Source: Acidobacteriota bacterium (lineage in GTDB: Bacteria > Acidobacteriota > Terriglobia > Terriglobales > Acidobacteriaceae). Taken from it: a stretch of DNA of 64,000 bases. The position numbers and the translations under genes were made by a program. Below are positions 53,913 to 62,700 of this stretch, piece by piece. Each line of letters opens with the position of its first letter. The stretch's first letter is position 1. The notes under the pieces were generated by a model. It ran no database searches and was not told the DNA's origin. It saw only the letters and a program-made list of their open reading frames with translations. The stretch is from contig JABDBE010000008.1 in the NCBI GenBank assembly GCA_013288805.1, positions 1-64,000 on the forward strand, in the 5' to 3' direction.

Positions 53913-53958
53913 AGCCCCGGAGGGGCGGCAGATAATAGCCCAGGACGTAAGTCCTGGG
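53913..53958. repeat. CCCAGGACTTACGTCCTGGG/CCCCGGAGGGGC double hairpin
   Basis: Two stems side by side: AGCCCCGGAGGGGC and CCAGGACGTAAGTCCTGG, separated by GGCAGATAATAG. Copies in the other orientation stand at 61274-61323 and 62655-62700. The same order and spacing in all three show a single dispersed element. Confidence 0.75.
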
Positions 53959-54412: not shown

Positions 54413-55489
54413 ATGCCGGGCACTGAATCCACAGGCGCCACCTCAGCGGACCTCGCTCATTCAGGCCTGTTGCGGACGTGTCGCGAAGCCGCTCTGAAGA
54501 CTCGCGAAAAGCTAGACCAACTGCTCTCAAAGGAGATTCCAGGGTATACCTCTGAGGACACGAGTCTTGTCGTATTTGGCTCGCTGGCCAGAGGAGAGTG
54601 GACTTCCGGCAGCGACCTCGATTGGACTTATCTGATAGACGGCGGGGCGAACTCGGATCATTTGGTGATTGCGCAGAACATCAACGAGGTTCTCGAAAAG
54701 GCAGGGTTTCAACGCCCTGGGCCGACCGAGACCTTTGGCAATATGGCCTTTAGCCACGACCTCGTTCATCAGATCGGTGGCCAGAACGATACCAATAAGA
54801 ACACGACCCAAAGAATCTTGCTCCTACTGGAATCGCGAGCGATTGGTAAGAGAACTGATGCCTACGAACGCGTGATCCGTGGCGTCATAAACCGCTATCT
54901 CGAGGAAGACAACCACCTGTTAACTCATGATTCGAAGAGATATCGCGTCCCCCGCTTTCTTCTGAACGACATCGTGCGATTTTGGAGAACCATGGCAGTC
55001 GATTTTGCCAGTAAACAACGAGACCGGGCTGGCAAGGGTTGGGGGTTACGCAATGCCAAATTGCGCATGTCGCGAAAGTTGATCTTTGCGTCCGGTCTGC
55101 TGGTTTGTTTCAGTGCGTATCTGGATCCAGATTTACAAACCAAGATTTCCACCGACCAGAAAGATGGTATAAAGCTCACACTGCTCCAGCACATTAGAGA
55201 TTGCGTGAGGCTGACTCCCCTCGAAATTCTTGCGAAGTCAATGGAGCGGTACGGAGTGTCTCAGTCGATTGCAAAAACTTTGTTTGATGCTTACACAGAA
55301 TTCCTGAAGTTACTTAGTGATGACAAGAGCCGCACAGCACTCGAGAATCTTCGATCGAGCGACTCGCGAACCGATCCCACATTCCGGCAGATTAGAGAGA
55401 TCAGTACAGTGTTCGAGGGTGCTCTTGACCACATTTTTTTCAAGAATAAGCTGATAGAGCCACTAACCAGGAAGTACGGGGTCTTTTGA
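54413..55489 (+). CDS. nucleotidyltransferase-fold protein, GlnD/DUF294-like
   Basis: 358 aa. The pol-beta nucleotidyltransferase motif is complete: G56-S57 in VVFGSLARGEW and D68-x-D70 in SGSDLDWTYL. The next 250 residues are helical, with RFLLNDIVRFWRTMAVDFA and GWGLRNAKLRMSRKLIFA as conserved-looking blocks, like the DUF294/GlnD-type putative nucleotidyltransferases. Target could be a protein, RNA or small molecule. Its TGA overlaps the ATG of the next gene, so the two are coupled. The pair points toward the reverse transcriptase unit; codons appear less GC-biased than in nearby core genes, which suggests transfer. Confidence 0.82.
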   Translation: MPGTESTGATSADLAHSGLLRTCREAALKTREKLDQLLSKEIPGYTSEDTSLVVFGSLARGEWTSGSDLDWTYLIDGGANSDHLVIAQNINEVLEKAGFQRPGPTETFGNMAFSHDLVHQIGGQNDTNKNTTQRILLLLESRAIGKRTDAYERVIRGVINRYLEEDNHLLTHDSKRYRVPRFLLNDIVRFWRTMAVDFASKQRDRAGKGWGLRNAKLRMSRKLIFASGLLVCFSAYLDPDLQTKISTDQKDGIKLTLLQHIRDCVRLTPLEILAKSMERYGVSQSIAKTLFDAYTEFLKLLSDDKSRTALENLRSSDSRTDPTFRQIREISTVFEGALDHIFFKNKLIEPLTRKYGVF

Positions 55490-56205
55490 TGAGGCGTATC
55501 GGATTTTCGACGGGCGCATTGGCGAGGAACGACTTCCGCAGAGCCCTGCAGATGCTGACCGGCAAGAACGTGTCTGCGGTGGAGCTTTCGGCTTTACGTC
55601 AAGACGAACTGATCCCACTAGTTGAGCAACTGGACCAATTGGACTTGAGTCCGTTCAAATACGTTTCATTTCACGCCCCAAGTGCAATGGAGCAATCGTT
55701 TGAGCCGCTAGCCCTGGAACTTCTTTTGCAGGTTGCAGTTCGCAAATGGCCAATAATTGTCCATCCGAATGCGATGTACAACCCGTCGGAGTGGCGTCGT
55801 CTCGGCAATTGCCTTTGTATCGAGAACATGGACAAGCGAAAGCCGATCGGGCAGACGGCAAAAGATCTGGCAGAAATCTTCGAAACCGTGCCGGATGCCT
55901 CCTTCTGCTTCGACATCGGCCATGCTCGCCAGGTCGATCCTACAATGAGCGAAGCATCTGCAATTCTTCACCGCTTCCGTGACAGAATTCGACAGCTCCA
56001 CGTAAGCGAAGTAAATACCCAAAGCAAGCACGACCCCTTGAGCTTCGAATCGATTCTCGCCTTCCACAAAGTGTCCCACCTCGTGCCCGCAGACGTTCCA
56101 GTGATCCTCGAGAGCAAAGTCCAAGAATCAGAGATCAATGGGGAGATCGAAAGTGCTCTTAACGCGCTGAGGGTAGATAATGTGCTCGCGCTGACCGGCG
56201 ATTAA
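55489..56205 (+). CDS. TIM-barrel protein, xylose isomerase/AP endonuclease-like
   Basis: 238 aa, ATG overlapping the stop of the nucleotidyltransferase (TGATG). A compact TIM barrel with candidate metal ligands at the strand ends: FHAPSA, VHPNAMY, CIENMD, CFDIGHARQVD, LHVSEVN and VILESKV. This pattern of His/Glu/Asp matches the sugar phosphate isomerase/epimerase and endonuclease IV group. It is shorter than most isomerases. Coupling suggests it acts with the nucleotidyltransferase, perhaps making or removing a modified group. Convergent with the reverse transcriptase gene, 29 nt between stops. Confidence 0.78.
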   Translation: MRRIGFSTGALARNDFRRALQMLTGKNVSAVELSALRQDELIPLVEQLDQLDLSPFKYVSFHAPSAMEQSFEPLALELLLQVAVRKWPIIVHPNAMYNPSEWRRLGNCLCIENMDKRKPIGQTAKDLAEIFETVPDASFCFDIGHARQVDPTMSEASAILHRFRDRIRQLHVSEVNTQSKHDPLSFESILAFHKVSHLVPADVPVILESKVQESEINGEIESALNALRVDNVLALTGD

Positions 56206-56234: not shown

Positions 56235-57224
56235 CTAAGCTGACGCATCGAGAAACCGCTTGTCGGATTCCGTCAGGGGTCGCCCTTTACTCACCGCCGC
56301 TAGGTCGTTCGCATAATAGCAAACGTCCTCGGGACAGAGCTGATGGATGTAGCGAAGCTGCGCAACCAGACCGTTGATGTACTTCTCCTCGTCCTCTTCC
56401 CTCACCAAGCCAGTTCGCAACTTGTGGATGCCCGACCGAATTCTTGAGAGCTTCTCCTTCGGGGCGCGTACCTGTCGTGCCCCGAGCCTTGTCCCAGTGA
56501 GGAGCTTGATCGCTCTCGGCCCCATAATTCTTATCTTTTTCCGCGATAGCCGAAGTCCGTGAGCCGCGAGCACCGAGGCCGCCACTTGGATCAATTCGCG
56601 TGCGTGCTCGCCGGAGAACGCGAGGTCGTCTATCCAAGTTGAATACGCAACATTCAGATTTGTGCAGGCCCTTCTGATCGGTTCGTCGATCATCCAGATA
56701 AACAAATTAGCAAGAAGTGGACTCGTCGCGGCCCCCTGCGGCAGGCGTCGCTGAAAAGTCGTGAGCTGCGTCAGAAGCGCCGCTACAGGTGTGGAGCAGC
56801 CCAGTAATTTCCTCCAAACCTGGTAAACCTGGACATTCGTTATGCTCGGGAAGCACTGTCTTATGTCGAGCGTCACCAGTAGAGCGGCATTCAAATGCCG
56901 CCCTGCGTTATCCCGCACGCTGCGCTTCGGGATCGCCCCGAAAATATGCTCCGGGAAGCAAATGGGCTTGAGCAATCGACGGTAGATCCGCTTTTGGACC
57001 CAACTGAGTTCTTTCATGGGGTTGTCGATTGGGCGCAGCTTGGAGGGAGGCTGTCTCTGAAATGGCCGAGACCGCGCAACTGTCTCGAACGGGTCGTAGT
57101 TCAGTTCCGGCTCGACCGAGAGCCTAACCAGCGTTTCTCTTGGGACCTTGAGCATGTCGGCCAGCCGATTTATGCTCAGAACGCGGAGCTTTTCGACCAC
57201 GGGTGCTATTCCTGGCGGTTCCAT
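56235..57224 (-). CDS. retron-type reverse transcriptase
   Basis: 329 aa, ATG 5 nt after GGAGG. Catalytic Asp of motif A is D120 (VTLDIRQCFPSI); the motif C dyad is D199-D200 in WIDDLAFSG. QGAATSP at 163-169 is the retron/group II type, not the GxxxSQ of diversity-generating elements. The retron-diagnostic N-A-x-x-H is N106-AGRH in the expected place before motif A. The VTG motif appears as L-T-G-T-R-L-G at 242-248. There is no maturase or endonuclease domain, and the length is right for a retron RT. Odd: Trp where motif C usually has Tyr. The 5' end lies inside the upstream HTH gene. Retrons are anti-phage systems in which the RT and its msDNA guard an effector; the effector here is not certain. 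Confidence 0.88.
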   Translation of the reverse strand: MEPPGIAPVVEKLRVLSINRLADMLKVPRETLVRLSVEPELNYDPFETVARSRPFQRQPPSKLRPIDNPMKELSWVQKRIYRRLLKPICFPEHIFGAIPKRSVRDNAGRHLNAALLVTLDIRQCFPSITNVQVYQVWRKLLGCSTPVAALLTQLTTFQRRLPQGAATSPLLANLFIWMIDEPIRRACTNLNVAYSTWIDDLAFSGEHARELIQVAASVLAAHGLRLSRKKIRIMGPRAIKLLTGTRLGARQVRAPKEKLSRIRSGIHKLRTGLVREEDEEKYINGLVAQLRYIHQLCPEDVCYYANDLAAVSKGRPLTESDKRFLDASA

Positions 57225-57510
57225 CTTCGCCTCCGCCCAACAACAATCTACTGAGGCCGATAGCCAAACGATTAATCGTCTCGGAATCGGCGTTCTTCAC
57301 ATCCTTCCGCTCGGATGCAAGAAGTGTGAACAGGTGAAGTGGGATTCCAAGAGCCTCAGAGATTCTCTCAAGAATTTCCAGACTCGGCTTCCGCTTTCCA
57401 CTCTCCAGCATGCAGACGAGGCTGGAGTCCACGGAAATCCGCTTCGCGAGCTCGCGCTGTGGCATATCGGCGAGAGCTCGCGCAACACGAATGGCTTTTG
57501 AGTAGTTCAT
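57124..57510 (-). CDS. XRE-family helix-turn-helix regulator
   Basis: 128 aa from the ATG at NYSKAIRVARAL; a TTG 16 codons upstream has no ribosome binding site. The Cro/CI HTH spans about residues 6-60 (MPQRELAKRISVDSSLVCMLESGKRKPSLEILERISEALG). After LAIGLSRLLLGGG the last 35 residues, rich in Arg, Lys, Gly and Ser, are encoded in the overlap with the reverse transcriptase and look like out-of-frame sequence. The overlap of 101 nt implies translational coupling or an ancestral shift of the stop. Likely regulator of the unit, acting on the inverted repeat at 58145-58181, or a component of the retron complex. Confidence 0.85.
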   Translation of the reverse strand: MNYSKAIRVARALADMPQRELAKRISVDSSLVCMLESGKRKPSLEILERISEALGIPLHLFTLLASERKDVKNADSETINRLAIGLSRLLLGGGEDGTARNSTRGRKAPRSEHKSAGRHAQGPKRNAG

Positions 57511-57583: not shown

Positions 57584-57793
57584 TCAGCGAACGAAGGTCT
57601 TAATGATCGCCTCAGCTACTGTCCGAACGGCCCTGAAGATTTCTCTTCTGCTAGGATTCGGCCTTCGCCAAAGGCCTCTCAGTTCGCCCTCCGCCTTTTC
57701 TAGTGCACTTCTCTGTTCCGGTTCGAGTCCATCTCGCCTCTGCATGGATTGAAGTTCATCCCTGCAGAATTGCAAGTTCTTGTCTTTTTTCAT
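57584..57793 (-). CDS. small charged protein heading the reverse transcriptase unit (69 aa)
   Basis: AAGGAG stands 7 nt before the ATG. The product is helical and highly charged (KDKNLQFCRDELQSMQRRDG and EQRSALEKAEGELRGLWRRP), with one Cys near residue 10 and no membrane span. It resembles small accessory or antitoxin-like proteins, but no family was recognised. Its ribosome binding site lies in a strong stem (57796-57852), so translation may be regulated. It is the first gene of the unit; the HTH gene starts about 75 nt downstream. Confidence 0.68.
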   Translation of the reverse strand: MKKDKNLQFCRDELQSMQRRDGLEPEQRSALEKAEGELRGLWRRPNPSRREIFRAVRTVAEAIIKTFVR

Positions 57794-57795
57794 TG

Positions 57796-57852
57796 CATTC
57801 TCCTTACCGGCAGTTGCCGGTGCCGCAGAAGGCAGCTGTCCGAAGGAGAATG
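57796..57852 (-). promoter_or_regulatory. RNA stem masking the ribosome binding site of the 69-aa gene
   Basis: On the transcribed (-) strand CATTCTCCTT (57852-57843) pairs perfectly over 10 bp with AAGGAGAATG (57805-57796), which contains the SD sequence. Directly inside is a second hairpin, ACCGGCA-AC-TGCCGGT (57821-57806). When folded, the ribosome binding site is closed. Release by a protein or by reverse transcription of the leader would open it. Confidence 0.6.
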
Positions 57853-58128
57853 GACCGAACCGAAAAACTCACCCAACGTGTGCCGCACAACTCGCTACGT
57901 ACACGTCCGACACCCCACATATATATCCCCCGGTAACCGAGAGTACACAGGTAGCAGCGTCAGATTGATGGTTTAACCTCCCCATCGCAGTGAATGGCTA
58001 ATCACCCACCGCATTACGTCCCCCGTCCGTTGACGAGGGACTCGACCATGGAAGCAACCCGACTGCTAGAGAACGAATTGTCAAAGAACTTGCCGAATCG
58101 CCGTAACGGCGATCCAACCACACCCTAA
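57853..58128 (-). ncRNA. candidate structured leader RNA, possible retron msr-msd
   Basis: A gene-free, transcribed stretch of about 275 nt between the promoter-like sequence and the first gene. On the - strand it holds ATCGCCG-TTA-CGGCGAT (58113-58097), a TAGCAGTC segment, an interrupted stem GTCCC/CGTC with GACG/GGGAC (58041-58018), and GTGA-TTAGCCAT-TCAC. A longer bulged stem GCTAC...GTAC against GTAC-GTAGC (about 57957-57894) completes it. Retron ncRNAs lie upstream of the RT and are two to three such hairpins plus one long one. Flanking a1/a2 pairing was not found convincingly, so the assignment is tentative. Confidence 0.4.
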
Positions 58129-58150
58129 TTGAAAACTATGTCGATGTCAA
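58122..58150 (-). promoter_or_regulatory. promoter-like sequence for the reverse transcriptase unit
   Basis: On the - strand TTGACA (58150-58145) is followed after 17 nt by TAGGGT (58127-58122). The -35 is perfect and the -10 matches at three positions. The -35 lies inside the inverted repeat at 58145-58181, so a bound regulator would shut it off. Confidence 0.45.
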
Positions 58151-58181
58151 TAAAAATGACAACAAGTCAATTTTATTGACA
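58145..58181. promoter_or_regulatory. 11-bp inverted repeat operator at the head of the reverse transcriptase unit
   Basis: TGTCAATAAAA (58145-58155) and TTTTATTGACA (58171-58181) are exact complements with a 15-nt spacer, which itself contains TGACAACAAGTCA, so TGTCA/TGACA half-sites recur. It is strongly AT-rich against a GC-rich genome and begins immediately beyond the nrdJ stop codon. An autoregulatory site for the HTH protein is the simplest explanation. Confidence 0.65.
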
Positions 58182-61172
58182 CTAGCTACACCCGCTCGTG
58201 CTGCCGCAGCTTCCGCATCTGTAGCAGCTTCCGTTGCGGGTCATGATCGATCCGCAGAAGGAGCAGGTTGGGGCGTCGCCGAGGTCGATGATTCCGGCGA
58301 GGGCGTCGGCGGCGTGGTGGCTTCCGGCGGCGGGGACGGGCGAGGACGCCCGGCTTCCACTTACTTCCGTCGAGCCGTTTATGTCTCCTACTGCTTCGGC
58401 TGTTGGCGGCGCGCTTGGCCGCAGGCGCAGGTTCTCGAACAGCATTTGCTGCTGGCCGGTGGAGAAGCGCAGATCGAGCCAGCGGAAGATGTAATCCATG
58501 ATCGACTTGGCGAAGCCGATGTCGGGATTGCCGCTCCAGCCGCTGGGCTCGAAGCGGGTGTGGGCAAACTTCTCGCACAGCAGTTTCAGCGGCACGCCGT
58601 GTTGCAGAGCGATGGAGACGGCGCAGGAGAAGCTGTCCATGAGGCCGCTGACCGTCGATCCCTCTTTGGCCATGGTGATGAAGATTTCGCCCACGCTGTC
58701 ATCGGGGTAAAGTCCGACGGTGATGTAGCCCTCGTGTCCGCCCACGTTGAATTTGTGGGTGATCGATCTTCTTTCAGCCTGCAGTTTGTGGCGCACGGCG
58801 CGCGGAGGCCCGTTGAGATTTTCTTCTTCGCGTGGAGCTGCCGCAGCAGCCGCATCACCCTTTTTCGAAAGCGCAGTCGAACTGCCGGCCGCGCTGAGTG
58901 GCTGCGACTTCTTGCATCCGTCGCGATAGACGGCGACGGCTTTGAGCCCCAGCTTCCACGCCTGCAGATAAGCTTCCATGATGTCTTCGACGGAAGCGCT
59001 CTCAGGCAAGTTCACAGTCTTAGAAATTGCTCCGGAGATAAACGGCTGCGTAGCCGCCATCATCCGCAGGTGGCCCATGTATGCGATCGACCGAGTCCCC
59101 TTGGCCGGCTTGAACGAACAATCAAACACCGCGAGATGCGCGTCTTGGATATGAGGCGCGCCCTCGATGGTTCCCGTCGCATCGATGTAGCTGACAATCT
59201 TGTCGGCCTCATCATGCGAGTACCCCAGCTTGAACAAAGCCGTAGGCACAGTGTTGTTGACAATCTTAATCATCCCCCCGCCTACCAGCTTTTTGTACTT
59301 CACCAGCGCTAGATCGGGCTCTACACCAGTTGTGTCGCAGTCCATCATGAAGCCTATTGTGCCTGTGGGGGCCAGGACTGTTACCTGGGAGTTTCTGTAG
59401 CCGTGTTTTTCGCCTTGGGCCAGGGCTTCGTCCCAGGCTTGTTTGCTGGCTTCGTATAACGGAGTTGGGATGTTGTTTTTATTTATGTTGTTGACTGAGG
59501 CGCGGTGCATTCGGATTACGTCGAGGAATGGCTCGCGGTTTATGTACCAGCCGGGGCAGGCTCCTCCGGGCATTACGTTGGAGCCTAGATTGGTTTCGGC
59601 CAGGCCCTTTTTTGTTGGCTCGGTTGCTGGAACCAACGGCGGGCAGAGCTCTGCAATTCTTGAGGATTGCAGATAGGCTTGGCCGCACATGATTGCGGTG
59701 ACGCAGGCGGCGTAGTCGCGTCCGGCGTCGGAGTCGTAGGGCAGGCCTGCGGCCATCAGGAGTGCGCCTAGGTTTGCGTAGCCTAATCCCAATGGCCGGT
59801 AATCGTGGGAATTCTTGCCGATCATTTCTGTCGGGTAGCCCGCGTTGTCGACCAGAATTTCTTGCGCCGTGATTAACACATCTACCGCGTGACGATAGGC
59901 TTCTACGTCGAAGGTTCCGTTGGGCGCGAACTTCAGCAGGTTCAGGCTGGCGAGGTTGCAAGCTGAGTCATCGAGGAACATGTATTCGCTGCACGGATTG
60001 CTTGCGTTGATCCGATTCGTGTTCTTCGAAGTGTGCCAGCGGTTGACGGTGCTATCGAATTGCATGCCAGGATCGCCGCAGCGCCAGGTGGCGTCGGAGA
60101 TCTTGTAGAGCAGATCTTTGGCTTTGAAGGTGTGCAGGGGCCGTCCGTCTTTTACCGCCTTGGTACTGAAGTCAGTGTCGCGGAGGACGGCGTACATGAA
60201 GTCATCGGTCACACGGACGGAGTTGTTGGCGTTCTGGAAAAAGATGGAAGAGTAAGCGTCAGAATCGGGCGATGATCCGTCGTAGCCGGTCGCGATCAGG
60301 GCGTGAGCCTTAGCTTCTTCTTTCGACTTGCACTCGATGAAGTCGATGATGTCGGGATGGTCGATGTTGAGGATGACCATCTTGGCGGCGCGGCGAGTCT
60401 TGCCTCCGGATTTGATGACACCGGCGAAGGCGTCGAAGCCCTTCATGAAGCTGAGTGGGCCGCTGGCTGTGCCTCCGCCGCTTAGACCTTCGGTCGAGGA
60501 ACGCAGCGGGGAAAGATTGGTGCCGGTGCCCGATCCCCATTTGAAGAGCATGCCTTCGGTCTTGGCGAGAGTCAGGATGGAGTCGAGCGAATCCTGCACT
60601 GAGTTGATGAAGCAGGCGGAACACTGCGGGCTGCTGTAGCCGGTTACTCCGAATTCGACGCGACCGGCTACTGGATTCCAGTGCCAGTTGCGGGCGTCGG
60701 AATCGGGCTCAATGCGATCACAGCCTACGTTGAACCAGACCGGAGAATTGAATGCCGCGTATTGGCGAAGCAGGATGTGGGCGAGTTCGTCGTGAAACGT
60801 GGCGCCATCTTCAGGAGTTTTGAAATAGCCTTGCGCCAAACCCCAGTCGCGGATGGTTTCAGCGACGCGAGTTACCAGGGCGCGAACTCCGGATTCGCGG
60901 TCGGGCGTGCCGATAGTCCCATGCAGGTATTTCGAGGCCACGATGTTGGTCGCGGTCATCGACCAGTCTTTGGGAACTTCGACGTCCTTTTGCTCGAAGA
61001 TGGTGTTGCCTTGCGCGTCGGTGATCTGAGCGATGCGGCGCTCCCATTCGATCTCATCGTAGGGCGAGACGCCGGGCTTGGTAAAGAAGCGGCGGAAAGT
61101 TAGACCTGGGGCTTTCTTGGTGGAGACGGTCTCAGTGGTAGTGTGGGCTCCCTTTACAGTGACTTCCGACAT
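58182..61172 (-). CDS. nrdJ: adenosylcobalamin-dependent (class II) ribonucleotide reductase
   Basis: 996 aa, ATG behind AGGAG. Reduces ribonucleotides to deoxyribonucleotides with a thiyl radical made by coenzyme B12. The redox Cys near residue 184 (SPQCSACF), the finger-loop N-P-C-S-E at about 392-396 with the radical Cys and catalytic Glu, and the loop PTGTIGFMMDCDTTG are visible. A C-terminal domain carries C-S-F-C and C-Y-R-C-G-S-C-G, a zinc-ribbon or reducing tail. It works without oxygen dependence. A near-perfect NrdR box lies upstream of the preceding genes. No second class of ribonucleotide reductase is in the window. Confidence 0.96.
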   Translation of the reverse strand: MSEVTVKGAHTTTETVSTKKAPGLTFRRFFTKPGVSPYDEIEWERRIAQITDAQGNTIFEQKDVEVPKDWSMTATNIVASKYLHGTIGTPDRESGVRALVTRVAETIRDWGLAQGYFKTPEDGATFHDELAHILLRQYAAFNSPVWFNVGCDRIEPDSDARNWHWNPVAGRVEFGVTGYSSPQCSACFINSVQDSLDSILTLAKTEGMLFKWGSGTGTNLSPLRSSTEGLSGGGTASGPLSFMKGFDAFAGVIKSGGKTRRAAKMVILNIDHPDIIDFIECKSKEEAKAHALIATGYDGSSPDSDAYSSIFFQNANNSVRVTDDFMYAVLRDTDFSTKAVKDGRPLHTFKAKDLLYKISDATWRCGDPGMQFDSTVNRWHTSKNTNRINASNPCSEYMFLDDSACNLASLNLLKFAPNGTFDVEAYRHAVDVLITAQEILVDNAGYPTEMIGKNSHDYRPLGLGYANLGALLMAAGLPYDSDAGRDYAACVTAIMCGQAYLQSSRIAELCPPLVPATEPTKKGLAETNLGSNVMPGGACPGWYINREPFLDVIRMHRASVNNINKNNIPTPLYEASKQAWDEALAQGEKHGYRNSQVTVLAPTGTIGFMMDCDTTGVEPDLALVKYKKLVGGGMIKIVNNTVPTALFKLGYSHDEADKIVSYIDATGTIEGAPHIQDAHLAVFDCSFKPAKGTRSIAYMGHLRMMAATQPFISGAISKTVNLPESASVEDIMEAYLQAWKLGLKAVAVYRDGCKKSQPLSAAGSSTALSKKGDAAAAAAPREEENLNGPPRAVRHKLQAERRSITHKFNVGGHEGYITVGLYPDDSVGEIFITMAKEGSTVSGLMDSFSCAVSIALQHGVPLKLLCEKFAHTRFEPSGWSGNPDIGFAKSIMDYIFRWLDLRFSTGQQQMLFENLRLRPSAPPTAEAVGDINGSTEVSGSRASSPVPAAGSHHAADALAGIIDLGDAPTCSFCGSIMTRNGSCYRCGSCGSTSGCS

Positions 61173-61273: not shown

Positions 61274-61438
61274 CCCAGGATTTACGTCCTGGGCTATTAG
61301 CTGTCTTTCGCCCCTTCGGGGCTTATTCCGTTTCCTTAATCTCATTCCCACGGCTTACGCCGTGGGCTGTATTCTTTCGCCGCTTCGCGGCTCGGTCCTT
61401 TTACGCCGCTTCGCGGCTGGACGGGCGAGATGCCCGTC
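61274..61438. repeat. cluster of hairpin repeats between the hypothetical gene and nrdJ
   Basis: In order: the CCCAGGA-TTTACG-TCCTGGG/CCCCTTCGGGGC element (61274-61323), CCCACGGC-TTAC-GCCGTGGG (61347-61366), two copies of GCCGCTTCGCGGC (61379 and 61404 regions), and GACGGGC-GAGAT-GCCCGTC (61420-61438). They fill nearly all of the 325-nt gap and the transcript must pass through them to reach nrdJ, so some may act as processing or attenuation sites. No gene is present. Confidence 0.65.
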
Positions 61439-62654: not shown

Positions 62655-62700
62655 CCCAGGACTTACGTCCTGGGCTATTGTCTGTCGCCCCTCCGGGGCT
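62655..62700. repeat. CCCAGGACTTACGTCCTGGG/CCCCTCCGGGGC double hairpin
   Basis: The third and best-preserved copy of the element at 53913 and 61274, with both stems intact and TATTGTCTGTCG between them. It lies in the gap between the nrdJ group and the PGDYG-like gene. No other feature is evident between 62500 and 62870. Confidence 0.75.

Follow-up and report, generated by a model that had tools for sequence, protein, structure and literature searches.

On the minus strand of the window (the whole 64,000-nt stretch of DNA analyzed here), an operator-like palindrome, a leader, a small open reading frame for a protein of 69 aa (smORF), an HTH gene, and a reverse transcriptase (RT) gene follow one another in the 5' to 3' direction. 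The features are as follows, with the basis for each in parentheses.

58145-58181, minus strand: probable operator, palindrome TGTCAATAAAATTGAC-ttgtt-GTCATTTTTATTGACA, overlapping the -35 box (sequence)
58150-58145, minus strand: -35 box TTGACA (sequence)
58122-58127, minus strand: probable -10 box TAGGGT, 17 nt after TTGACA (sequence and alignment)
58092-58118, minus strand: hairpin 1, boxB-like, at the RNA 5' end, GUUGGAUCGCC uuacg GGCGAUUCGGC (covariation)
58078-58087, minus strand: boxA-like UCUUUGACAA, resembling the NusB/S10 recognition element of rRNA antitermination (match to rRNA leaders)
58068-58078, minus strand: a1 strand AUUCGUUCUCU (best fold without constraints: 11 bp with a2 and one bulge)
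58065-58067, minus strand: AGC directly after a1, with a candidate branching G at 58066 (sequence)
57804-58064, minus strand: msr-msd body (RNA fold)
58041-58032/58027-58018 and 58012-58003/57996-57987, minus strand: first two stems of the body (RNA fold)
57963-57907 and 57821-57806, minus strand: long bulged stem and terminal hairpin of the body (RNA fold)
57843-57852, minus strand: anti-Shine-Dalgarno strand CAUUCUCCUU, a competitor of a1 for pairing, its partner being 57805-57796 AAGGAGAAUG (RNAalifold on 10 loci, permutation)
57792-57803, minus strand: a2 strand GGAGAAUGCAAU, spanning the Shine-Dalgarno sequence and the AT of the smORF ATG (fold and permutation test)
57584-57793, minus strand: smORF, 69 aa, predicted three-helix bundle (position shared with relatives; AlphaFold pLDDT 88.7)
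57124-57510, minus strand: XRE-type HTH regulator (PADLOC HTH_VI, PDLC02926, 3.4e-19; Pfam HTH_3)
56235-57224, minus strand: retron RT, 329 aa (PADLOC RT_VI, PDLC02952, 1.6e-65; Pfam RVT_1; alignments)

The type VI system definition of PADLOC uses RT and HTH, and the window agrees with it in both protein families, in operon order, and in having the RNA upstream of the first gene. RT_VI is the best PADLOC model for the RT, the runner-up being RT_II-A (1.5e-49), and the protein carries a WIDD catalytic box, NAGRH, and LTG where the retron motif is VTG; the NAxxH motif is absent from the RT of some relatives (L010, L011, and L014). The HTH protein can be aligned across three phyla. The RT and HTH genes share 101 nt (57124-57224), so there is no room between them for the noncoding RNA, a location that the sequence-only reading had named as evidence against its proposal of a retron msr-msd RNA in the leader. 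That proposal is borne out: RT_VI and HTH_VI are the best PADLOC matches, the leader structure is conserved in homologous loci, L001 and L002 among them, and the a1/a2 pairing covaries. We identify the leader as the msr-msd RNA of a type VI element, one more example of a known retron class. Compared with the PADLOC type VI models, the window adds a small first gene, the use of its ribosome-binding site as a2, a boxA head, and a new host lineage; we know of no described type VI retron in this lineage.

Relatives were collected from genome contigs, Acidobacteriota genomes, and plasmids. They comprise loci from Acidobacteriota (L001/L007, L002/L008, L004, L005, L009-L016, and L055-L057), a Pseudomonas plasmid (L060), Alteromonas (L067), Psychrobacter (L068), and Aureispira of the Bacteroidota (L078), together with more distant relatives (L006, L026, L027, and L058). 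The leader anatomy is common to over 20 of them in three phyla (Acidobacteriota, Pseudomonadota, and Bacteroidota), and the order small gene-HTH-RT is kept in nearly all. When viral contigs, phages, and most plasmids were searched for RTs, the matches belonged mainly to other retron types and served as controls; a search for HTH_VI around G246 at E≤1e-20, too strict a cut-off, gave no match. Two copies are possibly inactive: the RT catalytic box of L006 reads YVDN rather than xxDD, and the RT frame of L055 has an in-frame TAA.

Transcription appears to start near 58118. The core GTCATTTT..TTGACA was found at the equivalent place in most relatives, and the palindrome is, from its sequence, the probable site at which the HTH protein would bind and repress its own operon. 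At the -10 position, L001 and L002 have TATATT; the window's own TAGGGT is a weak match. The leader extends from about 58118 to 57794, about 325 nt. The stretch 58118-57791 folds at -139.1 kcal/mol, versus -115.1 ± 5.2 kcal/mol for 100 shuffles (z -4.7; none as good). An untranslated, structured leader with several independent stems, as the sequence-only reading had described, is therefore confirmed, while its length of 275 nt and the borders 57853-58128 have to be revised. That interval begins inside the promoter and ends about 60 nt short. It thereby misses the 3' strand of the hairpin that hides the ribosome-binding site and the whole of a2 (57803-57792), hence the earlier impression that the a1/a2 pairing was unclear.

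Within the body, the first two stems are retained with compensatory changes in L001 and L002. A stem with GCTAC/GTAGC ends, also suggested earlier, did not hold up, since the best fold pairs CUAC (57954-57951) with GUGG and the segment is not conserved in L001/L002. The AGC predicted near 58066 is indeed present at 58067-58065, directly after a1; AGC, GGC, or NGC follows a1 in many, not all, relatives, so the branching G is only a candidate. In Rfam, the leader had no match at the gathering threshold; the M23 sRNA (E 1.3), the sole match at E≤5, was rejected. Pairing of the boxA region with AGCGAGTTGT, which would imply a hairpin swap, is present in a longer fold; it is not kept in relatives and was likewise rejected.

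Locus by locus, the strand right after the UCUUUGA motif is complementary to the ribosome-binding site of the locus's own small gene. Examples are UUGUUGCUCC with GGAGCAACAA in L010, UCGUUUACUC with GAGUAGACGA in L014, AUUUAGGgCUCCU with AGGAGaCCUAAAU in L056, AUUGCUG-CUCCUU with AAGGAGuCAGCAAU in L057, GAGUGGAG with CUCCACUC in L026/L027, and CAUGGUC with GACCAUG, directly on the start codon, in L006; the pairing is weak by sequence in L011, L015, L016, and L005. A three-sequence consensus fold gives the a1/a2 core. RNAalifold on a plain MAFFT multi-locus alignment recovered only hairpin 1, the small 3' hairpin, and the anti-Shine-Dalgarno hairpin, and a1/a2 was therefore tested by permutation (with 21 loci in a first version). 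Own-locus duplexes averaged -13.3 kcal/mol, compared with -9.9 kcal/mol (sd 0.56) when a2 was permuted among 23 loci, and none of 20,000 permutations was as good. Control regions 28, 48, 68, and 88 nt after boxA showed no own-locus pairing effect in the same test. Judged by sequence comparison, this own-locus fit is covariation supporting the end pairing of a retron.

The smORF ribosome-binding site can also be covered by the anti-Shine-Dalgarno strand, which is conserved and prefers the partner of its own locus (0/20,000 permutations over all loci; 119/20,000 within Acidobacteriota). The two folds differ by less than 1 kcal/mol (-147.2 kcal/mol with the anti-Shine-Dalgarno hairpin vs -146.4 kcal/mol with a1/a2), and in the ensemble of the window's RNA including the ORF start, a1 accounts for 2% of ribosome-binding-site pairing and the anti-Shine-Dalgarno hairpin for the rest. 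Because the start is buried in both folds, the smORF is probably translationally silent in the resting RNA until the latter is remodeled, plausibly by reverse transcription.

The smORF product is conserved and under purifying selection relative to L001/L002 (Ka/Ks 0.21-0.32). Searches of NCBIfam, PHROGs, PDB profiles, and Foldseek gave no significant family or structure match. The protein probably acts as an effector or antiviral factor; a role as an antitoxin or as a structural partner would be just as conceivable. The smORF has Ks of 0.64 and 0.79 relative to L001/L002, and the HTH or RT gene 1.5 and above, the low smORF values hinting that RNA constraint reaches into the ORF.

The 5' head of the leader resembles that of rRNA operons. 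In hairpin 1, 87% of cells are paired vs 74% after shuffling, with a covariation score of 0.49 vs 0.23 (0/500), and the signal collapses when the strands are slid. No 16S is assembled in the window's genome, so genomes of the same family were used for the boxA comparison; the UCUUUGACAA 10-mer with an upstream hairpin was found in all five rRNA leaders examined, from four such genomes. In G523, GGGTCTTTGACAA occurs both in retron L010 and in rRNA leader L064. A covariance model built from 13 retron heads (R1) recovered the left-out retron leaders L001, L006, L011, L005, and L060 (E 2e-6 to 1.5e-3). When R1 was applied to five rRNA loci, each locus contributed exactly two of the ten best matches, the first preceding 16S and the second in the spacer that follows it, in agreement with the two boxA copies carried by rRNA operons (PMC4807359); low-score matches also occurred at about 20 other sites in the genome, several of them coding. 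A boxA match is present in 18 of 23 type VI leaders vs 3 of 23 loci of other retron-type RTs (anywhere in ~1.2 kb upstream). The Alteromonas retron has GTTCTTTAAAA, which fits the gammaproteobacterial boxA form (consensus GYTCTTTAANA; PMC5725501), and the Bacteroidota retron has GTTCTTTGAG. The element is degenerate in Psychrobacter and L026/L027, and partly so in the Pseudomonas plasmid. The leader head is probably an rRNA-type boxB-boxA that loads a Nus complex.

A hairpin-boxA head also occurs in a dispersed noncoding family in the window's genome (G000; L084-L086, L088, L090, and L093), at C62 14040 and 15551, C35 20848, C10 29726, C1 88722, C7 22345, and C33 11514. Its members consist of a promoter-like CTTGA..GATAACAT, a hairpin GATTATCTGCAAGATAATC, a boxA TCTTTGACAA, and a variable stretch, followed in most copies by a 3' block CTAACTCCAATGTTTCCAAGATTTTGCC...TCTAGATTTTGCGCGAAAACGAGAGTTTTTTTTGAGG (at least 5 copies of the block). 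An Rfam search of the family gave no match, and these elements look like an undescribed RNA family.

In rRNA operons, boxA lets polymerase pass long untranslated RNA, rescuing leaders from Rho, and it is proposed to tether the 5' end so that a far-off 3' strand can pair with it (PMC4807359, PMC10250234). The boxB-boxA-boxC order of rRNA leaders has the same succession of hairpin, boxA, and a strand pairing with much later RNA (PMC10250234, PMC4807359); unlike the rRNA leader, the window's RNA belongs to a retron rather than to pre-rRNA, and its Nus binding is putative. By this comparison, the retron would share both needs of rRNA, namely passing long untranslated RNA and pairing distant ends.

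We consider it likely that the leader doubles as msr-msd RNA and as the 5' UTR of the smORF-HTH-RT mRNA, with translational gating and a boxA head as parts of the same explanation. Sequence comparison shows the family, the a1/a2 pairing, its overlap with the ribosome-binding site, the two competing folds, and the boxA match, and we infer msDNA formation, Nus binding, derepression, and the effector role. Transcription would begin near 58118 under probable HTH autorepression, and the boxB-like hairpin and boxA would probably load an rRNA-type Nus complex. This complex would keep RNA polymerase going through the long untranslated RNA and may retain the RNA 5' end until transcription reaches the distant a2. 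Pairing of a1 with a2 would then close the retron fold and bury the smORF ribosome-binding site; in the alternative fold, the anti-Shine-Dalgarno hairpin in the msd part would cover it. Primed beside a1/a2, reverse transcription would copy the anti-Shine-Dalgarno strand, and RNase H would remove it, which would result in a short-leader smORF mRNA held by a1/a2 alone. Release of a1/a2 would switch on the three-helix protein, probably an anti-phage effector. As the start is buried in both folds and reverse transcription beside a1/a2 would erase the anti-Shine-Dalgarno strand, we infer that reverse transcription unlocks translation.

Other explanations should be weighed against this one. The leader might be a plain cis-acting attenuator that controls translation of a toxin-antitoxin-like smORF-HTH pair, with the RT acting elsewhere. 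The folds hiding the ribosome-binding site are clear, as such an attenuator would have them, and a small ORF with a related HTH gene but no adjacent RT is found on a Thiothrix plasmid (L077) and perhaps on a Nitrosospira plasmid (L075), possibly RT-less relatives or remnants. However, neither of these two loci has a boxA/a1/a2 leader, the RT follows the HTH gene with overlapping or near-adjacent reading frames in full type VI loci, and a1/a2 around an AGC-headed, multi-stem RNA is the layout of a retron, all of which makes the attenuator improbable. That the structure is a functionless chance fold of a GC-rich leader is hardly credible: short GC-rich stems are generally common in such genomes, yet no shuffle folded as well as the leader, its pairings covary, and the whole anatomy is conserved in other phyla.

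A further explanation accepts the retron RNA and takes UCUUUGACAA as an RT-recognition motif of type VI retrons rather than a Nus boxA. The motif directly precedes a1, and its sequence is conserved in the way expected of a site bound by protein; on the other hand, the identical motif with its upstream hairpin stands in same-family rRNA leaders, the Alteromonas retron has the gammaproteobacterial boxA variant, and the hairpin-boxA head recurs on the unrelated dispersed elements with no RT nearby. We regard this alternative as unlikely, though less so than the attenuator. Returning to the gated, boxA-headed retron leader, a broader proposal can be offered only tentatively, as somewhat short of probable: an rRNA-type boxB-boxA leader may underlie type VI retrons in general, with the Nus complex joining a1 and a2 as has been proposed for rRNA leader and trailer, a2 serving as the ribosome-binding site of the small effector, and reverse transcription acting as a translational switch.

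The canonical msr-msd RNA of Eco1 (Ec86) has a1/a2 end pairing, a G-containing motif after a1, and stem-loops between. The window's RNA shares all three and differs in that its a2 also serves an ORF as ribosome-binding site and that a hairpin-boxA head lies 5' of a1. Both traits recur throughout the family and are possibly unreported, the principal type VI papers lying outside the literature covered; within it, we found no paper linking boxA to retrons and none on the mechanism of type VI retrons. A 2025 preprint on a type VI retron is reportedly titled to the effect that reverse-transcribed ssDNA derepresses translation of a retron antiviral protein, and both cases would then concern a retron protein translationally gated by retron RNA. 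Should the preprint describe the gating proposed here, novelty would be confined to the acidobacterial member, the boxA head, and the mapping of a2 onto the ribosome-binding site in several phyla. The present analysis defines the RNA, with its exact a1/a2, for a retron class that is poorly described, and provides a testable account of how a type VI retron could keep its effector silent. If the boxA is real, it would tie a host housekeeping complex (the Nus factors) to the making of retron RNA, explain how the long untranslated RNA escapes Rho, and matter when type VI retrons are moved into other hosts for use as DNA-writing tools.

The retron lies just 3' of a B12-dependent ribonucleotide reductase gene in four genera (58182-61172, minus strand, in the window; L001, L002, and L010), which points to either ancient vertical descent or site preference. 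Directly behind it, two convergent genes (54413-56205, plus strand) match the PADLOC candidate defense proteins PDC-M70A (2.8e-138) and PDC-M70B (4.8e-100), giving a small defense island. In addition, four copies of the Acido-Lenti-1 sRNA (Rfam RF01687) are present in the last 11 kb of the window, at 53913-53958 on the minus strand and at 61274-61323, 61347-61392, and 62655-62700 on the plus strand.
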